64,000 nucleotides of DNA, taken from a bacterium (GTDB lineage: Bacteria; SAR324; XYD2-FULL-50-16). The notes below the pieces were generated by a model. The model had not been told where the DNA came from. It worked only from the letters and a program-made list of their open reading frames with translations, and did not search any database. Where the stretch lies: positions 1 to 64,000 of the forward strand of contig JAHJTV010000043.1 in the NCBI GenBank assembly GCA_018829445.1, in the 5' to 3' direction. This document shows positions 29,810 to 47,510 of this stretch, piece by piece (the stretch's first letter is position 1; every line of letters starts with the position of its first letter). Made by a program: the position numbers and the translations under genes.

Positions 29810-31033
29810 ATGGCAAAATCCAAGATTCCAAATATTTATCAATTACCCCAGGATATTATTGAAAGGATCGAAACAACATTAGCGGTATATTATGACAAAA
29901 CTCGAATTCACTCAATAGTTCTTGATAATCAAGGAGAGGTGGTGAGTGATTCTGGAACTCTTTGGATTTGTGATGGTTTCTACTGCAAACACACCGTCAA
30001 ATGTAAGGAAGAGCATCGTCTGGTTCTCAGGGAATCGTATCGCTTGGGCGGACCGTTTGTGCATCTGTGTCATAAGGATTTTGTAATCTGGGGAGTTTCT
30101 ATCACCCGGGATAACACTATCCTTGGAGGCGTTTTATCGGGATTTGTTCTTTTCGAGCAGCATCAGAATCTTCTGCAGGAGTATTTGTTTGAATTTCCGG
30201 GAATAAACAGGAAAGGAATGTTGATATCATCACAGACGGTTAATAGTGCATCCCAGATGTTGTTTACACTTTTCAAAAAAAACAATCTGTTTGATATTGA
30301 TCTGTTTAAAAAACTCGAAAACCGTGCGCATATTCAAAGAGAGATTGCAGAGAAGATAATCGAGAAAAAGAGCAAGGAGGAATACAGCCGTCATGTTATC
30401 TATCAAAAACAGAACAATTTAATCCAGGCCTTGCAGTTTCTGGAGGTGGAAAAAATCAGAAGTGGACTGAACGACGTATTAAGCGAGATTTTTCTGGAAG
30501 GGATAAACAATATCAGCCTATTGAAATTTCGTATGCTGGAATTGTTTGTCCTGATTTCCAGAACCATGTTGGAGATCGGTGGAAATATTGAAGAGTATTA
30601 TCATTTAACCAGCCAATATACAAAAAATACTGAGGATCTAGATGATATTTACTCATTTTCCCTGTGGTTGACAGCAATCTTAAACGATTTCATTGCAACA
30701 GTTACGACGACTCGCAAGAAGCTGGGAACTATCAATCGTGCCATCGATTATATTAAGAATAACCTGGACAAAAAACTGGTGTTGTCAGAAGTTGCACTGC
30801 TGGCTGCCATGTCAGAATCACGATTTTCTATTGCCTTCAAAATGGAGACTGGGCTCTCCTTTTCCGAATTTGTGAATATTACCAGGGTTGAGAACGCCAA
30901 GAAACTGATTCTGGAAAAGAAACTGACCTTTGTGGAGATAACAACCAAACTCGGTTTTTTCGATCAAAGTTACTTTACCAAGATTTTTAAAAAATATACC
31001 GGCAAGACTCCCCGACAATTTAGTACCTTATAA
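29810..31033 (+). CDS. PocR-sensor AraC-family transcriptional regulator
   Basis: 407 aa; PocR-like N-terminus (DSGTLWICDGFYCKHTVKCKEEHR...PFVHLCHKDFVIWGVSI) and C-terminal AraC HTH (FDQSYFTKIFKKYTGKTPRQF). Confidence 0.9.
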   Translation: MAKSKIPNIYQLPQDIIERIETTLAVYYDKTRIHSIVLDNQGEVVSDSGTLWICDGFYCKHTVKCKEEHRLVLRESYRLGGPFVHLCHKDFVIWGVSITRDNTILGGVLSGFVLFEQHQNLLQEYLFEFPGINRKGMLISSQTVNSASQMLFTLFKKNNLFDIDLFKKLENRAHIQREIAEKIIEKKSKEEYSRHVIYQKQNNLIQALQFLEVEKIRSGLNDVLSEIFLEGINNISLLKFRMLELFVLISRTMLEIGGNIEEYYHLTSQYTKNTEDLDDIYSFSLWLTAILNDFIATVTTTRKKLGTINRAIDYIKNNLDKKLVLSEVALLAAMSESRFSIAFKMETGLSFSEFVNITRVENAKKLILEKKLTFVEITTKLGFFDQSYFTKIFKKYTGKTPRQFSTL

Positions 31034-31252
31034 GTTATGTTCTGCATTTTTTGGCAGTTAATACTTAAAAGTATTTATTCACTCTGTCTGGGCTGCAAAT
31101 TGAAAGATTATTACCAAAATAAAAAGGTATAGTCCTATAATCCCCTGTTTTCGGCTTCTATAATTCCTACCAACAGCCAAGCTAAATAATTTTCAGGTAG
31201 AAGCGGTTTTGCCGTTTTTGAAGAGATTGACTTATTGGGCAGAAACTGCGAG

Positions 31253-31276
31253 CTGTCAATCTATAACTATTGACAG
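31253..31276. promoter_or_regulatory. dyad upstream of corrinoid protein gene (candidate operator)
   Basis: CTGTCAAT-N8-ATTGACAG, perfect 8-bp arms, about 30 bp upstream of the ATG at 31308. Confidence 0.35.
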
Positions 31277-31307
31277 ACACTTAATTTCATTTTTTTAGAG
31301 GTGTATT

Positions 31308-31940
31308 ATGGCATTACTACAAGAAATTTCGGAATATATCCAACAGGGTGATATGAATGAGGTCAGCAAACTCACCTCAATGGCCCTGCAACAGAATTTC
31401 AACCCCCAGGAAATCATAGATAATGGTCTTATCGTTGGAATGTCTGCTATTGGAGAGCGTTTTAAAAGAAATGAGGTCTTTGTTCCTGAGATGCTGATTG
31501 CCGCCAGAGCCATGAACAAAGCCCTCGAAATCCTTGAACCCAAAATGGTAAATGCCAAGATTAAAAAAACTGGAACTCTGGTAATCGGCACAGTTGAGGG
31601 CGATCTTCATGATATTGGAAAAAATCTGATTGGAATAATGTTCAAGGGCGCCGGTTTTAATGTTATCGACCTGGGGATTGATGTCTCTGCTGAACGTTTT
31701 CTGGAATCTGCCGTGGATCATAAAGCTGATTTTGTCGGAATTTCTGCGCTGCTCACTACTACCATGGTCAACATGGAGAAAACCATAAAGGAGCTGCGGG
31801 CTAACAACATAACAACCAAGGTCCTGGTAGGTGGTGCTCCCCTGACCGAGAAATTCGCTCATGAGATCGGAGCTGATGGCTACGCCCCGGATGCCGCTTC
31901 GGCAGTAGGTGTCGCCAAATCCTTGATGAATTCCCGTTAA
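31308..31940 (+). CDS. methyltransferase cognate corrinoid protein (B12-binding, MtbC/MttC-like)
   Basis: 210 aa; B12-binding-2 cap plus VEGDLHDIGKNLIGIMFKGAGFNVIDLG (DxHxxG) and GGAPLTEKFAHEIGADGYAPDA. Confidence 0.95.
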   Translation: MALLQEISEYIQQGDMNEVSKLTSMALQQNFNPQEIIDNGLIVGMSAIGERFKRNEVFVPEMLIAARAMNKALEILEPKMVNAKIKKTGTLVIGTVEGDLHDIGKNLIGIMFKGAGFNVIDLGIDVSAERFLESAVDHKADFVGISALLTTTMVNMEKTIKELRANNITTKVLVGGAPLTEKFAHEIGADGYAPDAASAVGVAKSLMNSR

Positions 31941-31976
31941 ACAAGTGTCATGGTTATTAGGCTTTTATTTTGACCC

Positions 31977-32099
31977 GGAAAGGGTGGTGGGTTGATCATC
32001 TGCTCTTCAAATTCGCTTCATCCCGGAGTAAACCCGGAAAACTGTATTGCCATGTTTGAAGCGACCAAGAAATACGGTCTGTATAACCATAATCACTAA
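31977..32099 (+). pseudogene. C-terminal remnant of a UroD/MtaA-family methyltransferase
   Basis: In-frame GKGGGLIICSSNSLHPGVNPENCIAMFEATKKYGLYNHNH* with a stop (TGA) 2 codons upstream. Resembles the C-terminus of UroD-family methyltransferases (GGG.I..SSNSIH.GV.PEN..AM.EA...YG.Y). Confidence 0.7.
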
Positions 32100-32116
32100 C
32101 CTCTACCTGGAGATCC

Positions 32117-33397
32117 ATGCAAAAAGATCCTGAGAACTCGAAACGATACGCTTATTATGTTTTTGGCCTGCTATTCCTGCTGTATATGTTTGATTACATC
32201 GACCGATTGGTGGTTGTTTCCCTCTTTCCCTATATTAAAGAGGATTGGGGGTTAACAGATGCCCAATGCGGCATGTTTGTTTCAACCGTTTACTGGTCCA
32301 TTTTAATCCTGTCGCTTCCCGCCTCTATCCTGGTGGATCGGTGGAGTCGTAGAAAAAGCATTGGAATCATGTCAGTGCTTTGGAGTGTTGCCGCGGTTTC
32401 CTGTGCGTTTACCAACAATTTCAAACAATTGTTCATTGCCAGAACAGCTATCGGTGTCGGTGAAGCCGGATACGCTCCCGGTGGTACCGCTTTGATTTCG
32501 ACCCTGTTTCCTGAAAAGAATCGTGCCAGAATGCTGGGGTTGTGGAATGCCTCCATTCCCTTGGGTAGCGCCCTGGGAATCGGGTTGGGAGCGTTTATTG
32601 CGGAACGATACGGCTGGCGTCATGCGTTTGGTATTATTGCATTGCCCGGTTTACTGGTAGCAATCCTGTTCTTTTTTATCAAAGATTATAAAACCATAGA
32701 ACTCACTAGAAAGGCTGTGGATATAGGGAGCGATCAAACGGTAAAAATGAATGTGCCCGATATCGCCAGACATTTTTTAACAAACAAGACACTAATCTTT
32801 AACAACCTTGCATTTGCTGCCAGTGTATTTTTAACGACGGCGATGATGACCTGGTTACCGACCTATTTTCACAGGGTAAACAATGTACCCATGACGGAAG
32901 CGGGCATCAAAGGTGGCGCCGTGATGTTATTGGCAATCGTGGGAGCGCCTTTAGGAGGATACCTGGCTGACAAGTGGTATGTCCGAAGGAAAACCGCCCG
33001 TCTTATCTTCCCTGCGCTGACCTCATTCTCATCTGCAATTTTCCTTTTTATCGCCTTCACTTTTTTTAAGGGCAATCTGCAATTCACCATCCTGATTTTA
33101 AATGGTATTTTAATTGTCGGGTTCGTTCCGGCTGCTGTCGCTGTCACTCAAGACGTTGTTCATCCGGGATTGAGAGCTGTTTCCCTAAGTCTGAATGTGA
33201 TTATTCAACATATTCTGGGGAGTTCCACCGCGCCGATCGTAATTGGAGCGTTATCAGATGCCTATGGCATCGAAACCGCCATGATATTCCTGCCCATCGC
33301 CCCCGTAATAGCAGGAACTCTCTATTTAATTGCTTCCCGGTTTTACCTGGCAGATCTGAACAGGGTGCAAAATGAGATCAGCCATTTGGCCAATTAA
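32117..33397 (+). CDS. MFS transporter
   Basis: 426 aa; 12 TM pattern, DRWSRRKSIGIMSVLWS loop and ARTAIGVGEAGYAPGG. Confidence 0.92.
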   Translation: MQKDPENSKRYAYYVFGLLFLLYMFDYIDRLVVVSLFPYIKEDWGLTDAQCGMFVSTVYWSILILSLPASILVDRWSRRKSIGIMSVLWSVAAVSCAFTNNFKQLFIARTAIGVGEAGYAPGGTALISTLFPEKNRARMLGLWNASIPLGSALGIGLGAFIAERYGWRHAFGIIALPGLLVAILFFFIKDYKTIELTRKAVDIGSDQTVKMNVPDIARHFLTNKTLIFNNLAFAASVFLTTAMMTWLPTYFHRVNNVPMTEAGIKGGAVMLLAIVGAPLGGYLADKWYVRRKTARLIFPALTSFSSAIFLFIAFTFFKGNLQFTILILNGILIVGFVPAAVAVTQDVVHPGLRAVSLSLNVIIQHILGSSTAPIVIGALSDAYGIETAMIFLPIAPVIAGTLYLIASRFYLADLNRVQNEISHLAN

Positions 33398-33429
33398 TAA
33401 CAAGTTCACTTATATTCTACAAATAAGGC

Positions 33430-35052
33430 ATGGAAGGAAAAGAACTGATAAAAGCGGCAATTGCTCTTAAGAAAACCGAGCGTGTTCCCTGGGTACCTTT
33501 TGTAGGATGTCATGGCGGATCACTGATTGGAGTTAACGCCACCGATTATCTAAAGTCGGAAAAACATATTATTCAGGGCACAGAAGAAGCAATTAAACGT
33601 TACCAACCGGATGGAATTCCCATCGTTTTTGATCTGCAAATTGAAGCTGAGATCTTGGGGTGTGACTTGCTCTGGGCGGATGAAAATCCTCCGGCGGTAT
33701 CCAGTCATCCCCTGGCCAATGGGAAGCTTTTGGCAGATCTAAAGATCCCTCAGTCTTCAGATGGTCGCTTGCCGATAGTTCTTAATGCAACCCGGGTTTT
33801 AAGGAAGCGCTACCCGGATTTGGCGCTTTATGGATTGATCACGGGGCCTTTCACTCTGGCACTTCATTTGTGCGGGTCCGATATATTTATGCAGTTGTAT
33901 CAGGATGAACAGGGAGTAAAAGAGGTCCTTGAATTCTGCAAACAGGTCTGCCTCGCCATGTCGGAATACTACATAGATGCTGGATGCGACATCATTGCCG
34001 TTGTGGACCCCATGACCAGTCAAATCGGTCCAAAACACTTTAAGCAATTCATTACCGATCCGATGAAAGAGATTTTCGCATTTATAAAAGAGAAACAAAC
34101 GCTGAGTTCTTTTTTTGTCTGTGGCCATGCACAGCAAAACATTGAAGCCATGTGTGATTGCAATCCAGATAATATTTCGGTGGACGAGAATATACCCCTG
34201 GAATATGTCCGGGACATCTGTCTTGCAAGAAACATCAGTTTTGGGGGTAACCTGCAGTTAACCATGGTACTTCTCCTGGGAAACGAAAACGATGCCATGC
34301 TAAATGCCCAGGACTGTGTCAATTCCAGCGGCGGTAAAGGATTTATCCTTGCTCCCGGTTGTGACTTACCCTACTCTACTCCCCCGAAAAATATTCAGGC
34401 TGTTACTGAGTATCTTCGTGATCCCTACCAGCGGGAGGTTGCTCTCACAATTCAGGATCATGAAAAAGCTTCGGATAGCCTTGACATGAGCGAATATGGG
34501 AAAACGGATAAGATCATCATTGATATTATCACCCTGGATTCCGAATCTTGTGCGCCTTGTCAATACATGGTCGAATCGGTACAACGGGTAATTCCTCAAT
34601 TCAAACACATTGTTGAGTGGCGGGAACATAAAATAAAATATCGTGAATCCCTTAAATTCATGGCTTCGTTAATGGTGAAGAATATACCAACCATCTGTAT
34701 TGACGGAAAAATTACGTTTGTCTCCCGTATCCCTCCCCAAGATGAACTCATTGCCGCCATTCAAAAACGGATATTTGAGAAATTAAATTATAAAATTAAG
34801 CTTAAAAAAGGCTCCTTACTGGTTTTCGGCAAAGATGCCAGTGAGTGTGAGAAAATCACGCCCAATGTAGAGCAGGCCATTAACGAATTAGGAGCCGATG
34901 TTAGTATCCAATATATAACGGATGAGAAAGAGATTCTGTCATACGGCATAGCTGTCACTCCAGCTGTTATGACGGCCAGATACAAGGTCAAATCCGAAGG
35001 AATCGTGCCTTCCATAACTGTTATCAAAGAATGGATCAAAGAAATTCACTAA
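33430..35052 (+). CDS. UroD/MtaA-family corrinoid methyltransferase fused to two C-terminal thioredoxin-like domains
   Basis: 540 aa; UroD-like (ERVPWVPFVGCHGGSLIGVNATDYL, GCDIIAVVDPMTSQIGPKHF, FILAPGCDLPYSTPPKNIQAV); then IITLDSESCAPCQYMVESVQRVIPQF (CxxC thioredoxin-like); then LLVFGKDASECEKITPNVEQAI...EILSYGIAVTPAVM. Confidence 0.85.
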   Translation: MEGKELIKAAIALKKTERVPWVPFVGCHGGSLIGVNATDYLKSEKHIIQGTEEAIKRYQPDGIPIVFDLQIEAEILGCDLLWADENPPAVSSHPLANGKLLADLKIPQSSDGRLPIVLNATRVLRKRYPDLALYGLITGPFTLALHLCGSDIFMQLYQDEQGVKEVLEFCKQVCLAMSEYYIDAGCDIIAVVDPMTSQIGPKHFKQFITDPMKEIFAFIKEKQTLSSFFVCGHAQQNIEAMCDCNPDNISVDENIPLEYVRDICLARNISFGGNLQLTMVLLLGNENDAMLNAQDCVNSSGGKGFILAPGCDLPYSTPPKNIQAVTEYLRDPYQREVALTIQDHEKASDSLDMSEYGKTDKIIIDIITLDSESCAPCQYMVESVQRVIPQFKHIVEWREHKIKYRESLKFMASLMVKNIPTICIDGKITFVSRIPPQDELIAAIQKRIFEKLNYKIKLKKGSLLVFGKDASECEKITPNVEQAINELGADVSIQYITDEKEILSYGIAVTPAVMTARYKVKSEGIVPSITVIKEWIKEIH

Positions 35053-35978
35053 ACAGTATCCCTTTCGTCTTGGTTACGGGATTCCTGGGAAGCGGGAAAA
35101 CAACTCTTCTGAAGCGTTTTCTGAATGCCCATGCGGATGAATGGAAAATAGCCGTCATTCAAAATGAGTTTGCCAACGCCAATGTTGATGGCCAGGAATT
35201 AAAAGAATCCGGGAAAACCTTTAAAATAGTAGAAATAAACAAAGGCTCGGTGTTTTGTGTCTGCCTGCTATCCAGCTTTGTTCACTCCCTGGCTGATCTG
35301 ATAGAATCATACCAACCGGATGTTATCATATTGGAAGCCACAGGTTTGGCCGATCCCATTGCAATCGGCCAACTTCTTTCAGCAAAAGAACTTAATGAAA
35401 AACTATACCTGGCCCATGTCTGGTGTGTTGTCGATTCAACCTCCTTCCTCGACTTGGAGCCCCGGGTTCAACGGATGACACATCAAGTACGAATCGCCGA
35501 CACAATTATTCTTAATAAAACAGACGTTGTATCACAGGAACATGTGACCAGAGTGGAAAAAAGAGTAGTCGAGGTAAACTCTCACGCCAATATAATTCGA
35601 GCACGTTTTTGTGAACTGCCTCATGGTATCTTAAATGAAGCGTTCATTCAAAGACCAGATGACAATAAAAATCGATCAAACACACAGGACATTAAACCCC
35701 ATGGTCCGCTATCGGTCTGTTCTGCCGTATTACGAACAACTGAGACTATTTCAAGGAGAAACCTGCAAAACTTTCTGCAACTGTATGAAAAAACCGCATA
35801 TCGTATCAAGGGATATGTCAATTTGACAGATCAAACAATAGTATCTGTACAATCCTGTTTTGGCCAAACTACCCTCCAAACCATCTTGAAAGAACCGGGT
35901 CCCACCGAATTGATCGCCTTGGGACCTCTGATTGACCCTCATGAATTCACAAGAGAGTTTAAAAAGATGACCAGATAA
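35031..35978 (+). CDS. CobW/UreG-type GTPase (metallochaperone-like)
   Basis: 315 aa; VTGFLGSGKTTLLKRFL Walker A, GSVFCVC (CxCC-like), NKTD; overlaps the upstream ORF by 22 bp. Confidence 0.93.
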   Translation: MDQRNSLNSIPFVLVTGFLGSGKTTLLKRFLNAHADEWKIAVIQNEFANANVDGQELKESGKTFKIVEINKGSVFCVCLLSSFVHSLADLIESYQPDVIILEATGLADPIAIGQLLSAKELNEKLYLAHVWCVVDSTSFLDLEPRVQRMTHQVRIADTIILNKTDVVSQEHVTRVEKRVVEVNSHANIIRARFCELPHGILNEAFIQRPDDNKNRSNTQDIKPHGPLSVCSAVLRTTETISRRNLQNFLQLYEKTAYRIKGYVNLTDQTIVSVQSCFGQTTLQTILKEPGPTELIALGPLIDPHEFTREFKKMTR

Positions 35979-36254
35979 AATTTATACTCGACTACAACTC
36001 TGAACTCCCTTCTTAATTCTGATAAAGTCATTTGATGACTCCCGGGAGGGATATTCCTGCCAAAACAAACTTTCCTTTTGGATACGCATAAGTTAATATT
36101 TTGAAGCACAAGAACAAGTGAATAAGAACAAGGTAAGTTTACTCAGCTTTTCTTAATATGAGCTGCTAAAAATATAGCAACTGCATATGTCTGGATATTG
36201 GGCTTGAACCCGGCACAGGTATTATTCAATTTTTTTTGTAGACTGAAGAAGCTT

Positions 36255-38585
36255 ATGATTCTTTCAACCCGTTTTCAGCGCATCAAAAACGAACTGCTTT
36301 CATACCCCATTCACCTCTGTATTGAAAGGGCTCGGTTGGTTACAGAGTATTTCAAACAGTTCGATAATGCCAACGAACCTATGGTGATAAGGAAAGCCAA
36401 AGCATTCCGTCATTTAATGCGAAAGAAGTCGATCAAAATCTATCCGGACGAGCTCATAGTCGGTAATATTGGCAAATACAGGAAATCAGCCATCATGCAA
36501 CCGGAGTTGTCCGGTGTATTTTCCTGTCAGGAGCTGCTTTGGATCGATAAACGCAAAACCACACCATTTAAAATCTCCTGGGGAGATCGCCTGAAATTGC
36601 TCAAAGGGGTCATTCCCTACTGGCTTCCCCGTAATATGATCATCCGCGCTTTCTGGCCCGATCTGAAACACTTAAGTCAATACATTGTCGATCAACTAAA
36701 TCCCAATTATTACCTGATAAACGAGGTTGCCGGAATCGGACATTTTATCCCCCATTATGAAAAGGCAATAAAAATAGGGCTTAAAGGTTATCTTGAACAA
36801 CTGAAAAATGGTAAAACCGATCTATTCCGGGCAATGGCGATTACAGCCGAAGCGGTTATCGACTATTCCAATCGTATGTCCTGCGAAATAGAACGATTGG
36901 TACAATTGGAAACCGACAAAAAGCGATCACAGGAACTGGTTTCCCTGGCAGAGATCTGCAAAAAGGTGCCCGAAAATCCGGCTGAAACCTTCCATGAAGC
37001 CCTGCAGGCACTTTGGATCTGCCACATGGCAGTCTGCCTGGAAGGGGTAAACTCAGCAGTTTCCTTCGGTCGACTGGATCAAATCCTATACCCCTATTAC
37101 AAAAAAGATCTGGAAACAGGCAGAATAACACCGCAACAGGCAAAGAAACTGCTGCTCTGCTTTTCCGCAAAAACAACCGAGCATGTATTCCTGATCTCCG
37201 AAAAAATGAGTAAATACCACGGAGGTTTCCTGGTTGCCCAGGCTGCCATTGTCGGGGGAATAGACAGTAGGGGAGAAAATGCCGTTAATGACCTCTCCTG
37301 GATCTTGCTTGACGTGATGGAAGAGTCGGGATTGAGAGATCCCAACTATCAGGTCAGGATTCACAAGAACACCCCCAGTGAATTTATACGACGGGCATTG
37401 GATGTTGCCAGGAAGGGAACAGGGTCGCCTGCCTTCTTTTGTGACGAGGCAACCGTCTCCTCTTTAACAGCACACGGGTATAGTGAAGAGGAAGCGAATA
37501 CCTATGGCATTGTCGGCTGTGTTGAACCCACCATACCCAGCAGAAGTTTTTGCTCCACTGATGCGGCACTGGTTAATCTGCCGGTTTGTCTTGAACTGGC
37601 TTTAAACCAGGGAAAACGGATTAACGGCAGAAAACAGATTGGTATAAACACCAGAAATCCTGGGTTGTTTCATGACATGGAAGATGTAATCACCGCTTTC
37701 GAAAAACAGGTTAGCCACTTGGTAAAAAGGCTGATAAGAGATATCCAGGTGATCGAAAAGGGCAATCGAAACTATCATCCCACTCCGTTCTCCTCCATGC
37801 TGGTAGATGGCTGTATTGAGAACAATAAAGATATTACTGCCGGCGGTGCCCAGTATAACTCAAGTGGGATACAGGGAGTTGGAGTGGCTGATGTCTCGGA
37901 TTCGCTGGCGGCCATTGAGGAAGTAGTGTTTCAAAATAAGCGGTTTTCCCTCAAAGAGATTATCGATGCCTTGAAAACAAACTTTGATCAGAACGAGCCC
38001 CTCCGGTCTTACCTGGTCAAAGCCACCAAATTCGGAAACGATCACGGTTCTGTAGACAGATTTGCAGAAAGGACAATGTGCATATTTCATGCGGCACTGG
38101 GAAACCATCAAAACTCCAGAGGAGGCCCTTATATTCCCGGGTTTTATTCGTCAACTTGTCATGTGGGATTCGGTGAACAGACAGCGGCGCTACCCAGCGG
38201 AAGGAAAGCCGGCCAGCCTTTTGCTGCCAGTATGAGCGCCGGCAATGGAATGGATCGTTCCGGTCCAACCGCTGTTTTGAATTCTGTGGCGTCAACCGAC
38301 CCCAGATTATCACCCAACGGGTACGCCCTTAATTTGAGTTTCGATCCCCATACTCTCAAAGGGGAGAAGGGAGTGATGATTCTGGATTCCCTGCTTCGCG
38401 GATATTTTGAAAAAGGAGGCATGGAACTTCAACTGAATGTACTGGATCATCAGGTTCTCGAAGACGCCTTGAATAATCCCGGTAAACACCCCGGGATCGT
38501 GGTGCGGGTGGCAGGCTATTGCGCCTTTTTTGACGACCTACCCCACGAAGTAAAAAAAGAGGTTATCAACCGCAACAGAACCTAA
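36255..38585 (+). CDS. glycyl radical enzyme (PFL-like family, eliminase/decarboxylase type, substrate unassigned)
   Basis: Active-site GIVGCVEPTIPSRSFCSTDAAL and C-terminal glycyl-radical loop VVRVAGYCAFFDDLPHEVKKEVINR. Internal ATG 36255 preferred over the track's 36198. Confidence 0.93.
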   Translation: MILSTRFQRIKNELLSYPIHLCIERARLVTEYFKQFDNANEPMVIRKAKAFRHLMRKKSIKIYPDELIVGNIGKYRKSAIMQPELSGVFSCQELLWIDKRKTTPFKISWGDRLKLLKGVIPYWLPRNMIIRAFWPDLKHLSQYIVDQLNPNYYLINEVAGIGHFIPHYEKAIKIGLKGYLEQLKNGKTDLFRAMAITAEAVIDYSNRMSCEIERLVQLETDKKRSQELVSLAEICKKVPENPAETFHEALQALWICHMAVCLEGVNSAVSFGRLDQILYPYYKKDLETGRITPQQAKKLLLCFSAKTTEHVFLISEKMSKYHGGFLVAQAAIVGGIDSRGENAVNDLSWILLDVMEESGLRDPNYQVRIHKNTPSEFIRRALDVARKGTGSPAFFCDEATVSSLTAHGYSEEEANTYGIVGCVEPTIPSRSFCSTDAALVNLPVCLELALNQGKRINGRKQIGINTRNPGLFHDMEDVITAFEKQVSHLVKRLIRDIQVIEKGNRNYHPTPFSSMLVDGCIENNKDITAGGAQYNSSGIQGVGVADVSDSLAAIEEVVFQNKRFSLKEIIDALKTNFDQNEPLRSYLVKATKFGNDHGSVDRFAERTMCIFHAALGNHQNSRGGPYIPGFYSSTCHVGFGEQTAALPSGRKAGQPFAASMSAGNGMDRSGPTAVLNSVASTDPRLSPNGYALNLSFDPHTLKGEKGVMILDSLLRGYFEKGGMELQLNVLDHQVLEDALNNPGKHPGIVVRVAGYCAFFDDLPHEVKKEVINRNRT

Positions 38586-38648
38586 GGGGTCAAGTCTCGT
38601 TTTGTTGCAACTTAGAGAGTTGCAACAAAACGAGACTTGACCCCTTAG
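38582..38648. repeat. perfect 31-bp inverted repeat (long hairpin) between GRE gene and radical SAM gene
   Basis: CTAAGGGGTCAAGTCTCGTTTTGTTGCAACT-TAGAG-AGTTGCAACAAAACGAGACTTGACCCCTTAG; contains the GRE stop codon (38583-38585). Confidence 0.95.
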
Positions 38649-38666
38649 CTTAGCATAAGGATATTT

Positions 38667-39584
38667 ATGGCGGCATTCGAACCGGTTTATCTGGAAACCA
38701 AAAGGAAGGGTTTATTGAGGGAAAAAATAAACAAAGCTCGGGCTTTGTTAAAATCGTGCACAATCTGTCCGCGGGAGTGTGAAGTAGACCGTCTTGCGGG
38801 AGAGGTGGGAGAATGTAATACAGGGGAGGATGCGTGGTTATCCAGTTTTAATTCCCACTTTGGGGAGGAACCTCCCCTGGTGGGAATGTTCGGTTCGGGT
38901 ACCATCTTTTTTACTCATTGCAATCTAAAATGTAATTTCTGCCAAAACTACGACATAAGCCATGATGGAAATGGAGCAGAGGTAGGCATGGCCCAGCTGG
39001 CAACTACGATGATGATTCTTCAGAACAACGGTTGTCACAACATCAATTTTGTCACTCCCACCCATGTGGTTCCACAGATATTGGCAGCCCTGGACATGGC
39101 AATTGAGATTGGTCTATGCGTTCCTCTAGTATACAACTCCAGTGGTTATGACAAAGTGGAAACCCTTCAGCTGTTGGATGGTGTCATTGATATCTACATG
39201 CCGGATTTTAAATTCTGGGATGCCGGAATTGCCGAATTGACCTGTCATGCTCCTGATTACCCGGAAGTAGCTCGAAACGCCCTTGTTGAGATGCATCGGC
39301 AGGTCGGGGATCTTCAGTTTGATGAAAACGGAATAGCCCAAAAAGGGTTGCTGGTGCGTCACTTGGTGATGCCATCCGGGGCTGCGGGAACCAAGGACGT
39401 TATGAAATTTATTGCAGAGAAAATTTCGCCCAACACCTATGTCAATGTTATGGATCAATATCGACCCTGTGGTAAAGCCTATCATGTGGAGCAACTGTCG
39501 AGTTCTCTTTCAAGACAGGAGTTTAAACAGGCAGTCAAGGAGGCAAAACAAGCCGGTATCTCTCGGTTTGCTGTGCCCTTGTAA
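38667..39584 (+). CDS. radical SAM protein, PflX-like (putative GRE-activating-enzyme-like family)
   Basis: 305 aa; CTICPRECEVDRLAGEVGEC N-terminal cysteines; GSGTIFFTHCNLKCNFCQN (CxxxCxxC); NSSGYDKVETLQLLDGVIDIYMPDFKF. Confidence 0.9.
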   Translation: MAAFEPVYLETKRKGLLREKINKARALLKSCTICPRECEVDRLAGEVGECNTGEDAWLSSFNSHFGEEPPLVGMFGSGTIFFTHCNLKCNFCQNYDISHDGNGAEVGMAQLATTMMILQNNGCHNINFVTPTHVVPQILAALDMAIEIGLCVPLVYNSSGYDKVETLQLLDGVIDIYMPDFKFWDAGIAELTCHAPDYPEVARNALVEMHRQVGDLQFDENGIAQKGLLVRHLVMPSGAAGTKDVMKFIAEKISPNTYVNVMDQYRPCGKAYHVEQLSSSLSRQEFKQAVKEAKQAGISRFAVPL

Positions 39585-39610
39585 AAACGTATAATATTAA
39601 AAGGATCTAA

Positions 39611-40723
39611 ATGAAGATATCCCCTTTCAAACTGGAACGATATTTTGCAAAATACGAATTCAACGCTCCCCACCTACTCTGTTGTTCGGACTGTGAATCG
39701 ATGTCCATCGGCGACCTGCTGAAACTGGGTCAGGTATCGGAAGCAACTCTGAGTAATGTCTGGTTAGGATATACCGAATCACAAGGTGATCCCGCTTTGC
39801 GTGAAGAGATAGCCCAGCTGTACAGTGGGGTGAATCCGGAACAGGTTCTGGTTCATTCCGGTGCTGAGGAACCAATTTTTAATTTCATGAACGCTATTTT
39901 GGAACCAGGCGATCATGTAATTGTGCTCTATCCCTGTTACCAATCATTAACCGAAATTGCAGAATCGATTGGTTGTGAAGTTACTTATTGGAAACTGGAG
40001 AATTGTCCGGACTGGAAGGTGGATTTTGATATTTTCAAGGATCAGATCAGGCCAAATACCAAGCTGGTTATTGTGAATACACCCCATAACCCCACGGGAT
40101 TCCAGTTTACAAAAGAGGAGTTTAAAACTCTTTCCGATCTTTCCAATGAGCATGGTTTTTTTATCTTTTCCGATGAGGTCTACCGCTATCTGGAGTATGA
40201 TGAAAATGACCGGTTGCCTTCAATCTGCGATATTAATGAAAACGGGCTGGCCCTGGGAGTTATGTCCAAGACCTTTGGATTGGCCGGATTGAGAATCGGG
40301 TGGATTGCAACGCAAAACAAAGAGATCTACCATAAGCTGGCAGCTTACAAGGATTATACGACCATCTGCAACAGTGCCCCCAGTGAATTTCTGTCGACCC
40401 TTGCCCTTAAAAACAAAGAGAAACTCATCAAAAGAAACCTCGGCATTGTTAACAACAACCTCAGTTTGTTAAATCAGTTTTTTGATCAATACCAAGACCT
40501 GTTCAGGTGGAGCATGCCAAAAGCCGGGCCAATCGCATTCCCGGAACTCAGGCGGGGAGAAATCACCAAGTTCTGTCATGATCTGGTAACTAAAGCGGGG
40601 GTTCTTCTTTTGCCGGGAACCTTGTATGACAAGTCCAGCAACAACTTTAGAATCGGATTCGGCAGAACAACCATGGAGCAGTCTTTGAACAGGCTTGAGG
40701 AGTATTTGTCTGCAACCCTTTAA
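39611..40723 (+). CDS. PLP-dependent aminotransferase class I/II
   Basis: 370 aa; NTPHNPTGFQFTKEEF, SKTFGLAGLRIGW lysine motif, RIGFGR. Confidence 0.93.
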   Translation: MKISPFKLERYFAKYEFNAPHLLCCSDCESMSIGDLLKLGQVSEATLSNVWLGYTESQGDPALREEIAQLYSGVNPEQVLVHSGAEEPIFNFMNAILEPGDHVIVLYPCYQSLTEIAESIGCEVTYWKLENCPDWKVDFDIFKDQIRPNTKLVIVNTPHNPTGFQFTKEEFKTLSDLSNEHGFFIFSDEVYRYLEYDENDRLPSICDINENGLALGVMSKTFGLAGLRIGWIATQNKEIYHKLAAYKDYTTICNSAPSEFLSTLALKNKEKLIKRNLGIVNNNLSLLNQFFDQYQDLFRWSMPKAGPIAFPELRRGEITKFCHDLVTKAGVLLLPGTLYDKSSNNFRIGFGRTTMEQSLNRLEEYLSATL

Positions 40724-40725
40724 AC

Positions 40726-40758
40726 AAAAGGGGCCAAGATGACTTGTCCCCCTTTTTC
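40726..40758 (+). terminator. Rho-independent-like terminator after aminotransferase gene
   Basis: AAAAGGGGCCAAG-ATGA-CTTGTCCCCCTTTTT stem-loop, immediately after the stop codon. Confidence 0.65.
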
Positions 40759-40810
40759 TGTATATTACTGTTTCAATATATCAGTGTTTATACCGCAGTT
40801 TATTTTAGCA

Positions 40811-41944
40811 TCACTCAATGCGATCAGGTATATGCATGGCATCGGTTGCGGTTGCCGGAAATACCGACAGTGCCGTAGTAGTTGGCCCATCAGTGAAGTA
40901 CAACAAAAAGTTAGCCAGGTCTGTTTGCTCAGCTGCTGTTAGGTCCAGATATGTGGCAACGTCAGCAGCACTGGTCCAGGTTGCGGTTTCAGCGGAGCAG
41001 TTGGCAGCATCCGCTTCCAACCGGGTTGCGTTATTGATGCAGATTCCACTGGGTGTTGCATTTGACTTTGCAAAATAATAACCGGATTCAAAGACACCTG
41101 CTGTGCTTATCCCCCCTTGTCCGGCAGCCATTACATAGTTAGAACCGGTGCCATGGAAGCGAACCAGGAATTTGCGATTTGAGAGGTTCACTATCAATAC
41201 GGTGCGAAACGTACTGTCATCAGCAGCGGTATCATTGATATTGGTGGTGTTAAAAGCAAGTACATGATCATTGCTGGCATCGGTTTTGGACAAATACGCC
41301 TGATAAATATCGGATTGATCCCAACCTGCAGTGGCCGTATCGTGTTTTCTGGTAACAATCATGACATTTTTGGCAGAGGTATCGGTTTGAGTGGCAAAAT
41401 ACTGGGTTTGTGAACTGTAAGTTGAAGATCCGATGCAGTTCAACTGGCTGAAATAGTCAATCAGGTAGGTACTCGTATCACCACTGGAATCGTCAGTCTT
41501 AAAGGAACTTGCGTTCACAGTAGCTGCCGTGCAACTTGAGGCGAAATAGTTCAGAACATTTTCCATGTACATTTCAGCATGGTAGATAACACCGATAAGG
41601 GTTGTTACCGTGTATTTATTGGTATTAATTTCAGGCGTAACTCCTGTAGGACAGTTATTATCGCTATCAGGCATATAACACTCCAGCTTGAAGAAATTGC
41701 TGATAACCTGATCGCTAATAACATCCCCAGCAGTAAGAGAAGGGGCGCTGCTTGAGGATGAACCTTCAATCGCAGGCAAGGCCCTGGCCGCAGAATTAGC
41801 AAAATCCAGACTGTTGGAGCTTGCGGTCGTACTTGTTGTCGATTCATCATCATCGTCACTCGTCGCACATCCTACTACGAAAAACAAGGATGCAATCATT
41901 GAGAGTGTTATTATGCCAAACCATAAGATTCTGTTCTTTTTCAT
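40811..41944 (-). CDS. putative secreted lipoprotein of unknown function
   Basis: Start taken at MKKNRILWFGIITLSMIASLFFVVGC (lipobox) at 41944; Ser/Thr-rich linker; no recognised domain. Confidence 0.7.
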   Translation of the reverse strand: MKKNRILWFGIITLSMIASLFFVVGCATSDDDDESTTSTTASSNSLDFANSAARALPAIEGSSSSSAPSLTAGDVISDQVISNFFKLECYMPDSDNNCPTGVTPEINTNKYTVTTLIGVIYHAEMYMENVLNYFASSCTAATVNASSFKTDDSSGDTSTYLIDYFSQLNCIGSSTYSSQTQYFATQTDTSAKNVMIVTRKHDTATAGWDQSDIYQAYLSKTDASNDHVLAFNTTNINDTAADDSTFRTVLIVNLSNRKFLVRFHGTGSNYVMAAGQGGISTAGVFESGYYFAKSNATPSGICINNATRLEADAANCSAETATWTSAADVATYLDLTAAEQTDLANFLLYFTDGPTTTALSVFPATATDAMHIPDRIE

Positions 41945-42351
41945 ATCAACTCCATTAATACTAAAAAGTGTATTATCCCTTGAATTAGAGAATGTGCCCA
42001 TTGTATCACTCCTTCAGAACAGATGTCAAAATATTGTTTTTTTGTTTCCCTGCAGGTACTTAACAAACGATAAAGGGGAAAAGAGACTATCTCCTTTAAG
42101 CCATTGATTTCTATAGGGTAAGATCAGACACTAGTGAGGCATTAGTTGGAAAATAACAACATGGATTTGAGGTACAGGGGCGTTTAGGAATAATGATAAT
42201 TTAATTCTGTCTGATTGATTTGATTGTGCTATTGCTTCTTCAATAAATCATATAAGCTTGGCGAGTTGAAGAAAAAGGGCTCAAGTTTGATATTTATGTA
42301 TTCTATGTGAGGGTAAAAACTCATGGAGAGATTTGATCCCCTTCCCAAGAC

Positions 42352-43305
42352 CTATTCGAAATTGGCAGTCCCGATGTTGTTATTGGTATTAAGCTGAATG
42401 GTTCCGCATTTACCGATTTTACAAAAATTACTCATGTCGCTGGAGATAGTATTATTTTCGATTGAATTATTTTGAAAACTCAGTTTTCCGAAATTGGCGA
42501 GTCCGCCTACCGAATTATGACTGATATTGCTGTTGTACATCTCCAGTTCTCCCATGACAGAGATTCCGCCACCCTCTTTCGTACTTTTATTATGGGTGAT
42601 GTTTGAGTTTTTAATGATTGCCTTGGTATCGCAAGATATAAACAGTCCACCTCCCCGGGAATCCGAGGTATTGTAACTGATTTCACTGTTTTCAATCACC
42701 AAAACGCCACCCTTCTCATTTTGAATACCACCACCGGCCCCGCATGCTTTCCCGATTGGACCGGCCCTCTCAGCGTAATTTCTACTGATCTTGCTGTTGA
42801 GAATGGTCAGCGTGCCCTTATTCCAGATCCCTCCCCCGGAAGTTCTTGCCAGATTTTCGATTACCAGGACATTTATGAGGGTCAAGCTTCCCAGGTTGCT
42901 GATTCCTCCCCCGGAACTCGGGTAACCTTTGGGTTTCCCGTGTCTGATGGTTAAATTTTCAAGAGTGACTTCAGCTCTCTCTTGAATCTGAAACACCCTG
43001 TCACCAGCCTTACCTGGTTGAGTGTGGGCCTGTACAATCGTACCTGGTATCGTGTCGCCTATAATCTTTATACTCTTTCCCAGTGTTATTCCACCTTCGG
43101 TGTGAATGGTGTCCTTAATGAGGATTGTATCACCTGCTCGGGTACGCTCATCATCATTTGCCGCTTGAATAGTTGTGAATTGACAACCTGCCTTACAGAC
43201 CGTTAACTCCTGCATCACTTTTAATGCGCTGTTATCTGCGTACAAGGCTGCGGACCACAATCCCAGCAGCATCAATAAACCTGGTTTGAATTTATTAATT
43301 GGCAT
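42352..43305 (-). CDS. secreted right-handed parallel beta-helix (polymorphic outer membrane/pectin-lyase-like) protein
   Basis: 317 aa; signal peptide, repeats of GGGI.N.G.L.I.NS.IS.N type. Confidence 0.8.
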   Translation of the reverse strand: MPINKFKPGLLMLLGLWSAALYADNSALKVMQELTVCKAGCQFTTIQAANDDERTRAGDTILIKDTIHTEGGITLGKSIKIIGDTIPGTIVQAHTQPGKAGDRVFQIQERAEVTLENLTIRHGKPKGYPSSGGGISNLGSLTLINVLVIENLARTSGGGIWNKGTLTILNSKISRNYAERAGPIGKACGAGGGIQNEKGGVLVIENSEISYNTSDSRGGGLFISCDTKAIIKNSNITHNKSTKEGGGISVMGELEMYNSNISHNSVGGLANFGKLSFQNNSIENNTISSDMSNFCKIGKCGTIQLNTNNNIGTANFE

Positions 43306-43330
43306 TATCTGGTTTTGATAATAGGTTAGT

Positions 43331-44533
43331 TTATTTAAAATCGGACTTTTGAATTTTAGTCACAGTCACTTCATACACAGTCTTCAAGGGTATCCCTTTT
43401 TGTTCAGCCAGTCTTTTACAGTCCTCATATTCCGGTGAAATCTTTAAGATTTTTCCGTTTTGAAGGGCAGCTTTCGCTTTGACAGGTCCGAACTCTGTTT
43501 CGATCGCCATGATTTTTCTTTCAAGGCAAGCGCGATCCACAGGAATTCTTCTGATTCCCAGGGTTGAGGTTTCATTAAAAATGATGGCTTCAAGTTTTTG
43601 AAAATCCTGTTGATCACTGAGTACATTCAATAAAACCCCGGGCCGACCTTTTTTCATGATAATATTGGTCATAAAAACATCCAGTGCCCCCTGTTCAAAT
43701 AATAGTGGCAACAGATAGGAGTATATTTCCGGGTTCATATCATCAATGTTGGTTTCCAGCATGATCAGCTTATCAACAGCTATGGTATTTTCTTCAGATT
43801 CCTCACCCCAGAATACACGCAGCAGGTTCGGGATACTGAATTCCTTTTTACCGGTTCCATATCCTGTTTTTTGGATGATCATGGCAGGGAGGGAGCCAAA
43901 TTTTTTAGCAATGGTTTTTATAATAGCAGCCCCTGTCGGCGTTACCAACTCTCCGACCACATCGGTTGAATAGATGGGAACGTTTTTGAGGATGTCTGCT
44001 GTTGCAGGGGCTGGAACCGGTAACAGTCCATGAGCGCATTTAACCGTTCCGGAACCTACGTGCAAAGCAGATGAATAGATTTTATCGGGTTTTAAAATAG
44101 AAAGGCAGATTGCCGTCCCTACAATATCAACAATCGAATCGACGGCACCGACTTCATGAAAATGGATCTCGTCGATTGACTTTCCATGGACTTTCGCTTC
44201 CGCCTTTGCAATAGTATTAAAAATCTGTTTGCTTAGGTTTTTTGCATCATTATCGATATTACTTTTGTCAATAATTCCTTCAATTATCTTCAGGTTTCTG
44301 TGTGGATGGTGGTGATTTTGGTGATGCGAATGTTCTTCGAGAATCACATCAAAATCGGTTCCCGAAATCCCGTTTTTCACCTTTTGAGTGACCTTAAGCT
44401 CATATCCAGGTAGATTAAGGGATTTTAATTGAGCAATCAGTTCTTCCTTTTTTACACCCAAATCGATGAGGGCGCCTATAGTCATATCTCCGCTAATCCC
44501 TGCGAAGCAGTCAAAATATAAGATCTTATCCAT
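43331..44533 (-). CDS. larC: nickel-pincer cofactor nickel insertion protein LarC
   Basis: 400 aa; ILYFDCFAGISGDMTIGALIDLG, His-rich HSHHQNHHHPH, ETNIDDMNPEIYSYLLPLLFEQGALDVF. Confidence 0.95.
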   Translation of the reverse strand: MDKILYFDCFAGISGDMTIGALIDLGVKKEELIAQLKSLNLPGYELKVTQKVKNGISGTDFDVILEEHSHHQNHHHPHRNLKIIEGIIDKSNIDNDAKNLSKQIFNTIAKAEAKVHGKSIDEIHFHEVGAVDSIVDIVGTAICLSILKPDKIYSSALHVGSGTVKCAHGLLPVPAPATADILKNVPIYSTDVVGELVTPTGAAIIKTIAKKFGSLPAMIIQKTGYGTGKKEFSIPNLLRVFWGEESEENTIAVDKLIMLETNIDDMNPEIYSYLLPLLFEQGALDVFMTNIIMKKGRPGVLLNVLSDQQDFQKLEAIIFNETSTLGIRRIPVDRACLERKIMAIETEFGPVKAKAALQNGKILKISPEYEDCKRLAEQKGIPLKTVYEVTVTKIQKSDFK

Positions 44534-44539
44534 GATTTC

Positions 44540-45307
44540 TTAAGATTTTATCGCTTTTTCAGCGATCTGATTAATAACAGATGCGGAGAAACCCGCACCA
44601 AAACCATTATCGATATTAACGACGGTTACACCGTTGGCGCAGCTGTTAAGCATGGTCAGCAGAGCTGCCAAACCACCAAAACTGGCTCCATAACCGACGC
44701 TGGTTGGCACTGCGATTACCGGTTTGTCGGTCAATCCAGCCACTACACTGGGAAGGGCTCCATCCATCCCGGCGACAACCACCAGAACACTGGCATCATC
44801 GATTTTACTTTTGTTGGACAGTAATCGATGAATTCCCGCCACACCAACATCAAACAACCTGGCGACCGTATTCCCCATCATCTCTGCGGTGATGGCTGCT
44901 TCTTCGGCAACCGGAATATCAGATGTTCCTGCAGTGATAATCAGAATTTTGCTAATCGTTTTCTCAACCTCCCGGTTACGGATGATTACAATTCTGGCCA
45001 GTTCGTGATAAACGGCTTTTTCGCTGAGAGATTTCAGAGCCTGATAAATCTCTTTATTTGCTCGGGTTGCCATGATATTGACATTTTTATCCAGCATATT
45101 GGCCGCAATGCTTGTGATCTGTTCAATGGTTTTGCCCTGGCTGAAAATGGTCTCCGGGTATCCGGTCCGTATCTGACGATGGTGGTCTACCATAGCAAAA
45201 CCAAGGTCTTCGAAAGGAAGATTCTTAAACTGGTCCAGAGCCGATTCAACGCTGAGACTATTCTCTTTAATCTGCTGTAATAACACTCGTATTTTATCTT
45301 CGTGCAT
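44540..45307 (-). CDS. larB: nickel-pincer cofactor biosynthesis carboxylase LarB
   Basis: 255 aa; DHHRQIRTGYPETIFSQGKT, ITAGTSDIPVAEEAAITAEMMG, VVAGMDGALPSVVAGLTDKPVIAVPTSVGYGASFGG. Confidence 0.96.
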   Translation of the reverse strand: MHEDKIRVLLQQIKENSLSVESALDQFKNLPFEDLGFAMVDHHRQIRTGYPETIFSQGKTIEQITSIAANMLDKNVNIMATRANKEIYQALKSLSEKAVYHELARIVIIRNREVEKTISKILIITAGTSDIPVAEEAAITAEMMGNTVARLFDVGVAGIHRLLSNKSKIDDASVLVVVAGMDGALPSVVAGLTDKPVIAVPTSVGYGASFGGLAALLTMLNSCANGVTVVNIDNGFGAGFSASVINQIAEKAIKS

Positions 45308-45330
45308 GTTGTCTCGTTACCTGCTGATTA

Positions 45331-46134
45331 TTAATTCAGATTACCGGTTTTATACCCTTCAAGATCAAAGGTAACATATTTGAAACCGTAGGATTTAAGA
45401 GTCCCATTTACACGGTCCATCATTTCCGGGTCAAAGAAAAACTGACGTTGAGAAACATCTACCTCTATTCTGGCTATATCCTGATGATACCTGACACGAA
45501 CCTGGATCAAGCCAAGAGATCTCAGGTAATCTTCTGATTTTTCAATCTGTAGCAGGGCTTCTTTCGTAATTTTCTGATGATAAGGAATCCTTGAAGCCAA
45601 ACATGCCAGGGATGGTTTGTTCCAGGTCGGAAGACCCAGTTCTTTTGACGCCAGACGTATTTCTGCCTTGCTGAAATCACATTCAATCAACGGGCTGACA
45701 ATGCTTAATTCCTTTAATGCTCTCATTCCCGGTCTGTAATCGGACAGATCATCGATGTTGGATCCGTCAAGAAGTATTTCGATTTTCTCTTTGTGCATCT
45801 GTTTTAATAATAGACCAAAGATATTGGTTTTACACAGATAACAGCGCTCTCTTTTATTATTAAGCACATCGTCATCAAGCTGATCAATGGTTATAATCTC
45901 ATGCCGAACTCCTATCTCTTTGGCTATCTCCCGTGACTGTCTGAGTTCTTCCCGTGGAAAAAAGATGCTGTCAACAGTCAGCGCCAGACTATTCTCTCCC
46001 AGAACCTGAAAAGCAATTTTTGTGAGGAAGGTGCTGTCAACTCCTCCGGAAAAAGCTATGGCAACACTTCCGTAAGACTTAATCAGACTCTTAAGATTAT
46101 ATATTTTTTTTTCAAGACCCATCACAAAAAACAA
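45331..46134 (-). CDS. larE: ATP-dependent sulfur transferase LarE (PP-loop)
   Basis: 267 aa; AFSGGVDSTFLTKIA PP-loop, RCYLCK, TWNKPSLACLASRIPY. Confidence 0.95.
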   Translation of the reverse strand: MFFVMGLEKKIYNLKSLIKSYGSVAIAFSGGVDSTFLTKIAFQVLGENSLALTVDSIFFPREELRQSREIAKEIGVRHEIITIDQLDDDVLNNKRERCYLCKTNIFGLLLKQMHKEKIEILLDGSNIDDLSDYRPGMRALKELSIVSPLIECDFSKAEIRLASKELGLPTWNKPSLACLASRIPYHQKITKEALLQIEKSEDYLRSLGLIQVRVRYHQDIARIEVDVSQRQFFFDPEMMDRVNGTLKSYGFKYVTFDLEGYKTGNLN

Positions 46135-46301
46135 GCTGAAGTTTTAACTTGAGAAACCGGTTCTGAGTATCTGTCGTAATAGCAAAACAATATCAATGCG
46201 GGGTGTCATTAGCAAATGGTATTGTGATTCTTTTCGATTTGTGCTTCGCTGGTAAAGAAAAACGAATGATAGCAAGCTAATCGTTATATAGAGACAACCG
46301 A

Positions 46302-47510
46302 ATGTTTAAAACTTCAACCTCAAAACTTAACGGCACCCTAGCCCTGGTAAAAACCGATATGTCCGATGTAGCCGTAATAAAGTGTGAAAGTTATGATTAC
46401 AACCTGGTGAGACAGGCTGTTAAAAAAGGAATTGACCTGCTGGGAGGAACCGGCAGTTTTGTGAAACCGGGTGAAAAAATACTGCTAAAACCAAACTTAC
46501 TGGTCGCCGAAGTCCCTGAAAAGTGTGTTACAACGCATCCGGCAGTCTTTCAAGCAGTTTGTGAGCTCTTTGGCAAAGAGGAGGTTGAGCTTTCCTTTGG
46601 TGATTCGCCGGCATTCGGGAGCATGCAGAGAGCAGCCAGGAAAGCGGGGCTTCTGGAAATTGCGGAACAGCTTGGAGTAAAACCGGCGGATTTTAAAAAC
46701 GGGGAATCGGTTTTTTTCGAAAAAGGGATTCAAAACAAGAAATTTATAATCGCCAAGGGGGTTTTGGAAGCTGATGGTCTTATCAGCCTGCCGAAATTAA
46801 AAACACACGGACTGGAAAGAATGACCGGCTGTATCAAAAACCAGTTCGGTTGTATTCCGGGAGTGCTGAAAGGAGAATTTCATGTCAAATTGCCTGGAGC
46901 TCACGATTTCGGGAAGATGCTGGTGGATCTCAATAACTTTGTTAATCCCCGGTTGTATATAATGGACGGAATTCAGGCGATGGAAGGCAACGGTCCGCGG
47001 GGCGGAAAACCTAAACAGATGAATGTATTGCTGTTTTCCAGAGATCCTGTGGCACTTGACGCTACCGTTTGTCGGCTCGTTGATCTTGATCCCCAATATG
47101 TGCCAACTATCCAGTATGGTAGTGAAACAGGGGCCGGAGTTTACCTGGCAGATGAGATAACAATCCTGGGCGACAGCATTGAAGATCTGAAGACAACGTC
47201 ATTTGATGTTAAAAAGCGACCGATAAAATCTTTTGATAAACAAGCGCGGGGATTTTCTGGGTTCATAAACAACCGCCTGGTTCCTAAACCCTTCATCAAT
47301 AAGGATATCTGCACTCAATGCGGAACCTGCGTTTCCATGTGTCCTGTTGATCCGAAAGCGGTGGACTGGTTGGACGGTAACAAAGATCTGCCTCCCGTCT
47401 ATCATTATGATGAATGCATCAGATGCTATTGCTGCCAGGAGCTTTGTCCTGATGCTGCCATTGAGCTGAAAACGCCCCTGTTACGACGAATTATGGGGCT
47501 TATTCGTTGA
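46302..47510 (+). CDS. DUF362 domain protein with two C-terminal [4Fe-4S] ferredoxin motifs
   Basis: 402 aa; ILLKPNLLVAEVPEKCVTTHPAV, CTQCGTCVSMCPVDP, CIRCYCCQELCPDAAI. Confidence 0.92.
   Translation: MFKTSTSKLNGTLALVKTDMSDVAVIKCESYDYNLVRQAVKKGIDLLGGTGSFVKPGEKILLKPNLLVAEVPEKCVTTHPAVFQAVCELFGKEEVELSFGDSPAFGSMQRAARKAGLLEIAEQLGVKPADFKNGESVFFEKGIQNKKFIIAKGVLEADGLISLPKLKTHGLERMTGCIKNQFGCIPGVLKGEFHVKLPGAHDFGKMLVDLNNFVNPRLYIMDGIQAMEGNGPRGGKPKQMNVLLFSRDPVALDATVCRLVDLDPQYVPTIQYGSETGAGVYLADEITILGDSIEDLKTTSFDVKKRPIKSFDKQARGFSGFINNRLVPKPFINKDICTQCGTCVSMCPVDPKAVDWLDGNKDLPPVYHYDECIRCYCCQELCPDAAIELKTPLLRRIMGLIR

Follow-up and report, generated by a model that had tools for sequence, protein, structure and literature searches.

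Glycyl radical enzymes (GREs) are oxygen-sensitive radical enzymes, and members lacking a known function have time and again revealed new anaerobic chemistry, as was the case for HypD, IslA, HpfG and PflD. The B12-independent glycerol dehydratase (GD) of Clostridium butyricum (1r8w) has a pocket whose residue roles we take to be established. GD, the propanediol dehydratases 5i2a and 9rco, HpfG and PflD all act on vicinal-diol substrates, as read from PDB titles, and the solved PflD complex 8id0 contains 1,5-anhydromannitol-6-phosphate, which PflD cleaves (PDB title). The substrates of PflD and YbiW have been described, that of YbiW being a polyol (PMC12441222). A CxE motif is common to characterised GRE eliminases, and in trans-4-hydroxy-L-proline dehydratase (HypD) mutants show Asp278, Asp339 and Phe340 to be essential (PMC7077986). 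In many GRE eliminases, an aromatic residue on strand 3 serves as a packing position (PMC8473560, PMC7077986).

A full-length glycyl radical enzyme and its relatives

The window analysed, a stretch of 64,000 nucleotides, belongs to a 181-kb contig (C30) from the genome of a marine SAR324 bacterium (G000). It encodes a 776-residue GRE, here called P0001, from an ATG start and without an internal stop. Pfam placed a PFL-like domain at residues 5-640 (E 7.7e-177) and a Gly_radical domain at residues 657-759 (E 5.1e-25), which together span nearly all of the protein. The GRE fingerprint RVxG[FWY] was found as RVAGY at 751-755, with the radical glycine inside, and the mid-protein Cys loop was present, with Cys422 aligning with the catalytic cysteines of GD and HypD. 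That loop, GCVEPTIPSRSFCSTDAAL, carries the catalytic Cys422 and Glu424, and the CxE motif claimed in the initial annotation is therefore present as Cys422-Val423-Glu424. The same annotation described a glycyl loop with a cysteine adjoining the radical glycine motif; the loop, VVRVAGYCAFFDDL, and its Gly754 were recovered, whereas the cysteine, Cys756, lies at Gly+2. P0001 is an intact GRE with these catalytic residues at these aligned positions (Table 1).

We next compared P0001 with curated families. The Cys-Cys dyad of pyruvate formate-lyase was absent from the Cys loop (Gly421-Cys422-Val423), and the corresponding model reached 148 of 994 bits. Each NCBIfam equivalog model scored under half its cut-off, namely HypD (529 bits vs 1100), PflD (484 vs 1109), the sulfopropanediol dehydratases HpfG and HpsG (476 each vs 1000), CutC (441 vs 1050) and the arylacetate decarboxylases IAD (323 vs 1100) and HPAD (271 vs 1150). 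The PFL2-3 subfamily (TIGR01774, cut-off 678.2 bits) was narrowly missed, by P0001 at 631 bits and by its orthologue at 624. A sequence search matched 37 distinct PDB sequences, the best being 2f3o (E 8.7e-149, 500 bits, about 37% identity), followed by 1r8w (E 1.6e-142, about 35% identity), with the BSS and MasD structures among the weaker matches. Identity to characterised enzymes was about 30-36%, with none above ~36%, and GRE function is not transferable at that overall identity. With all equivalogs far under cut-off and the closest solved structures 35-37% identical, the earlier designation of the protein as an unassigned GRE holds; high identity to a defined GRE subgroup, which would speak against it, was looked for among these matches and was not found. 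As judged by these models, P0001 falls in no curated GRE subgroup; within this known kind of enzyme it counts as a new member at subfamily level.

An AlphaFold model of P0001, built on a thin ten-sequence alignment, was mediocre, with a mean pLDDT of 70, a pTM of 0.74 and values at 750-757 (the glycine loop) too low to support docking. A Foldseek search with this model ranked GD, 2f3o and propanediol dehydratases at the top, GD being best, and this ranking agrees with the sequence result without resolving the pocket. An Rfam search around the gene gave no match, and promoter and terminator scans there gave results at chance level.

The closest homologue of P0001 was an orthologue (L001, 69% identity) in the sister SAR324 genome PL23b_bin.69 (G047), followed by a C-terminal fragment (L004, 57-59% identity) on a Planctomycetota MAG contig, which was used for its sequence and not for its gene context; a GRE carried on plasmids in Moraxella osloensis and Acinetobacter towneri showed ~37% identity. 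Apart from the orthologue, no match at E 1e-150 was found in 52 SAR324 genomes. Likewise, no relative was found on the viral contigs searched or, at E 1e-145 (stricter than the L004 fragment would meet), in a sample of 392 Planctomycetota genomes. The P0001 and orthologue genes were 73/83/36% identical by codon position and 69% by amino acid, indicating that the gene is under purifying selection. Other genes common to the two genomes were 66-79% identical, comparable to this pair, and the codon pattern together with that similarity is as would be expected for vertical inheritance.

A maximum-likelihood tree built from 33 GREs placed P0001 and the orthologue as sister to the plasmid GRE (support 95/89); two 1015-residue SAR324 GREs (contigs C84 and C91) joined them next, followed by 2f3o (96/98). 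P0001 did not group with GD or HpfG, and PflD fell in a separate clade; the deepest branches, including those relating the P0001 clade to the GD, HypD and CutC groups, were weak. To our knowledge, no member of the clade (the plasmid GRE, C84, C91 or 2f3o) has an assigned function or substrate.

Several other GREs were seen along the way. The C84 and C91 enzymes (L057:6361-9408 and L059:7905-10952, both on the minus strand) have an N-terminal extension of approximately 215 residues, with a weak SCP2 sterol-carrier match in C84 only (E 0.028). Neither contig has a canonical activase, and the neighbours of the C84 GRE include short-chain dehydrogenases and a gene of the NAD-epimerase type; these two GREs possibly act on a hydrophobic substrate. 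On the plasmids of A. towneri (L068) and M. osloensis (L069), the GRE and a canonical activase form a transposase-flanked cassette that also has beta-propeller, CMD-family and partial molybdopterin proteins, in hosts that are largely aerobic bacteria. The SAR324 genome itself (7.67 Mb) has about ten GRE loci, among which HypD and HpfG pass the thresholds of their NCBIfam models; contig C78 has an intact HypD, and a hypD-like remnant, comprising the C-terminal part only and bearing an in-frame TAG, is on contig C51 (L053, about 8814-9125, plus strand). In a Clostridiales GRE homologue (L084), Thr replaces the radical Gly (RVATY), which fits published aminoacyl radical enzymes (PMC11528403).

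Active-site residues compared with known GREs

Table 1. Features of the P0001 locus, in window coordinates.
Feature	Position	Strand	Basis or remark
GRE P0001, 776 aa	36255..38585	+	open frame; Pfam PFL-like and Gly_radical; PDB sequence matches; AlphaFold model
His163 codon	36741..36743	+	alignment with GD His164, HypD His160
Ser267 codon	37053..37055	+	alignment with GD His281, HypD Asp278; PflD also Ser
Ala328 codon, aromatic packing position	37236..37238	+	alignment with GD Tyr339, HypD Phe340, CutC Phe395
CxE motif: thiyl Cys422, Val423, Glu424	37518..37526	+	alignment with GD C433/E435, HypD C434/E436
Asp436 codon	37560..37562	+	alignment with GD Asp447
Tyr631 codon	38145..38147	+	alignment with GD Tyr640
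Radical Gly754, Tyr755, Cys756	38514..38522	+	alignment; Cys also in L001, L004
PflX-like (COG1313-type) radical SAM protein, CxxxCxxC	38667..39584	+	82 bp downstream of P0001 gene
MtaA-like UroD methyltransferase with two fused thioredoxin-like domains	33430..35978	+	overlaps CobW GTPase gene
Block of PflX-like radical SAM, aminotransferase, LarC, LarB, LarE, DUF362	38667..47510		conserved in G047
Eight co-directional genes	29810..40723		P0001 gene included

In the alignment, the set formed by His163, Cys422, Glu424, Asp436 and Tyr631 is that of GD, both propanediol dehydratases, HpfG and PflD. The equivalent of Asp436 is missing in HypD, CutC, IslA and YbiW; since YbiW acts on a polyol without this Asp, Asp436 is suggestive and not necessary. 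In contrast to the conserved set, four pocket positions have changed relative to GD (His281 to Ser267, Ser282 to Ala268, Phe333 to His322 and Tyr339 to Ala328), so that P0001 lacks both the His281-Ser282 pair of strand 2, whose His pins the diol, and the aromatic Tyr339. The same four changes are seen in the orthologue, whereas GD and both propanediol dehydratases retain the His-Ser pair and the aromatic. The His322 in place of the usual Phe, along with Ser267/Ala268 in place of the His-Ser pair, indicates that substrate binding differs from that of GD, which is about 35% identical and lies in a different clade.

PflD (8id0, 8yjo) shares the His, CxE, Asp and Tyr residues with P0001, has Ser at the GD His281 position, and bears Gly at the aromatic position where P0001 has Ala328, both being small. 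It differs in having Phe at the His322 position, in its 33-34% identity and in its separate clade. On the alignment, the best reading is that Ser267 and Ala328 would open the P0001 pocket as in PflD. The PFL2 of Archaeoglobus fulgidus (2f3o), a member of the P0001 clade (96/98), likewise has the His, CxE, Asp and Tyr residues, but in it the positions of Ser267, His322, Ala328 and Cys756 are taken by Gln, Phe, Asn and Ser. The Cys loop of the sister plasmid GRE, GCVEPTAPGKTLASTDAAM, resembles GCVEPTIPSRSFCSTDAAL; this enzyme differs from P0001 in a Trp at the aromatic position, a Ser in the glycine loop and its link to a canonical ferredoxin-type activase.

Pocket residues of HypD, CutC and IslA were taken as named in PMC7077986 and PMC8473560. 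HypD shares His160 and the CxE motif with P0001, whereas its Asp278, Asp339, Phe340, Ser334 and Thr645 correspond to Ser267, Val327, Ala328, His322 and a Ser. Where choline TMA-lyase CutC has Asp216 (strand 1) and Phe395 (strand 3), and isethionate sulfite-lyase IslA has Gln193 and Trp374 (PMC8473560), P0001 has His163 and Ala328. Finally, the Cys at Gly+2 is shared with L001 and L004 and occurs in none of the 31 other GREs aligned; most have Ser at this position, and Asn, Ala and Thr also occur. The initial annotation had called the CxE motif typical of GRE eliminases and decarboxylases; by the alignment, the pocket resembles that of a diol dehydratase, an eliminase, more than that of a decarboxylase.

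Activation and gene neighbourhood

A cognate activase gene close to the GRE gene is usual in the superfamily, though it does not strictly define it. Consistent with the initial annotation, which had reported no canonical activase beside the gene, we found no match to the canonical GRE activase model (TIGR02494) on the 181-kb contig. Matches elsewhere in the genome mapped to contigs C75 (two), C1, C15, C78 and C81, each of which also has a GRE. Like C30, contigs C44, C84 and C91 have a GRE but no canonical activase. No activase was found within 10 kb of the orthologue in G047. Taken together, these findings make it most likely that P0001 is activated in trans, by an activase encoded elsewhere.

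We considered the PflX-like protein encoded downstream as a dedicated activase. It matched neither TIGR02494 nor TIGR02493, and it is kept at 66-79% identity in G047, G046 and G045, the latter two being without a P0001-type GRE. Its presence in such genomes, combined with the lack of an activase-model match, makes that role unlikely. The PflX-like gene adjoins aminotransferase and/or LarC/B/E and DUF362 genes; G045 also has the block listed in Table 1, but there the aminotransferase is not beside PflX.

Upstream of P0001 lie genes for a PocR-AraC regulator, an MtgC-like corrinoid protein whose nearest models are glycine-betaine MtgC, a galactonate-type MFS transporter, the MtaA-like UroD fusion and a CobW GTPase, the last separated from P0001 by a 277-bp gap. 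Taken alone, these genes would suggest a demethylation pathway. In G047, the MtaA-CobW pair is kept (L066, 72% and 54% identity) on another contig, away from the orthologue, and the PflX-aminotransferase genes lie 18.5 kb from the orthologue. We rejected an operon logic, as the blocks of neighbouring genes lie apart from one another in G047. With PflX in a separately conserved block and the methyltransferase genes unlinked to the orthologue, the neighbours provide no reliable clue to the substrate.

Downstream of the orthologue are two GNAT-like genes, then a GxGYxYP protein and a GPH sugar symporter, and genes of the lipid-export type (MMPL, LolA-like) are no farther than about 15 kb away. 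The GxGYxYP glycoside hydrolase-like protein was considered as a partner of P0001 and set aside: it occurs in the same 2 of 52 SAR324 genomes but is unlinked in G000, and because G000 and G047 are sister genomes the co-occurrence is weak evidence. The sugar-type transporters near P0001 and near its orthologue weakly fit a sugar-derived substrate, and neither genome's context names a pathway.

Proposed reaction and competing readings

The His-Cys-Glu-Asp-Tyr set and the PflD-type Ser and small-residue substitutions point to an eliminase of diols or polyols whose pocket could take a larger substrate. We infer this chemistry class and substrate type from the aligned residues, and put at about 0.55 the probability that P0001 is an eliminase-type GRE acting as a dehydratase or lyase on a vicinal diol or polyol bulkier than glycerol. 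A sugar-derived polyol or an anhydrosugar would be an example. An activase of the radical SAM type, from another locus in the genome, would abstract a hydrogen atom from Gly754, whose radical would generate a thiyl radical on Cys422. The latter would abstract a hydrogen atom from a hydroxyl-bearing substrate carbon, while Glu424, tuned by His163, would bind or deprotonate that hydroxyl. Asp436 and Tyr631 would hold the adjacent oxygen, the leaving group (water or another C-O group) would exit the neighbouring carbon, and the radical would return to Cys422 and then to Gly754. Against this reading stand the low identity to characterised enzymes, the altered pocket positions (His322, Ser267/Ala268) and the tree, in which P0001 falls with 2f3o and two further groups and apart from GD and HpfG.

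Some of the evidence can be read differently. The CxE motif is also found in arylacetate decarboxylases, and the MMPL and LolA-like genes near the orthologue, as well as the N-terminal extension and weak SCP2 match (C84) of the related C84 and C91 GREs, would suit an arylacetate-type decarboxylase or an X-succinate synthase-like enzyme with a hydrophobic substrate. We consider this unlikely given the low HPAD and IAD scores, the place of BSS and MasD among the weaker PDB matches and the polar, diol-dehydratase type of the aligned pocket residues. A glycerol or 1,2-propanediol dehydratase that has diverged but still acts on the small C3 diol would explain why GD is the best Foldseek and second-best sequence match and why His163, Glu424, Asp436 and Tyr631 are retained. 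The changes of His281/Ser282 to Ser/Ala and of Phe333/Tyr339 to His/Ala in both P0001 and its orthologue, at positions where GD and both propanediol dehydratases keep the His-Ser pair and the aromatic, make it quite unlikely, as does the position of P0001 outside the GD group.

The eight co-directional genes and the glycine-betaine affinity of the corrinoid protein, together with the existence of GREs for N-methyl-hydroxyprolines (8id1, 8iof), could instead suggest a single operon in which the GRE and the MtgC-like, MtaA-like and CobW proteins act on a methylated substrate (betaine or methoxy) and the PflX-like protein serves as activase. The dispersal of these genes in G047, the occurrence of PflX without a P0001-type GRE in G045 and G046, the gap between CobW and the GRE, and the failure of the PflX-like protein to match any GRE-activase model render this very unlikely. 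Least probable is a decaying or non-functional GRE without a working activase: although neither SAR324 genome has an activase linked to the gene, and the hypD remnant shows that GRE genes do decay in G000, the frame is full-length and the catalytic residues intact in two species at 69% identity, changes are biased to the third codon position, and canonical activases exist in the genome.

A bolder reading goes further; we offer it tentatively and hold it to be less than an even bet. P0001 and its relatives may form a new GRE subfamily that acts on a distinct substrate, marked by Ala328 in place of the strand-3 aromatic, His322 in the pocket and Cys756 in place of Ser, activated by a radical SAM enzyme that is shared or non-canonical and has its gene elsewhere, and directed at a bulky polyol not known for radical breakdown. 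The SAR324 lineage has almost no GRE literature, and a substrate for one member would open the whole P0001 clade, including the long-solved 2f3o.
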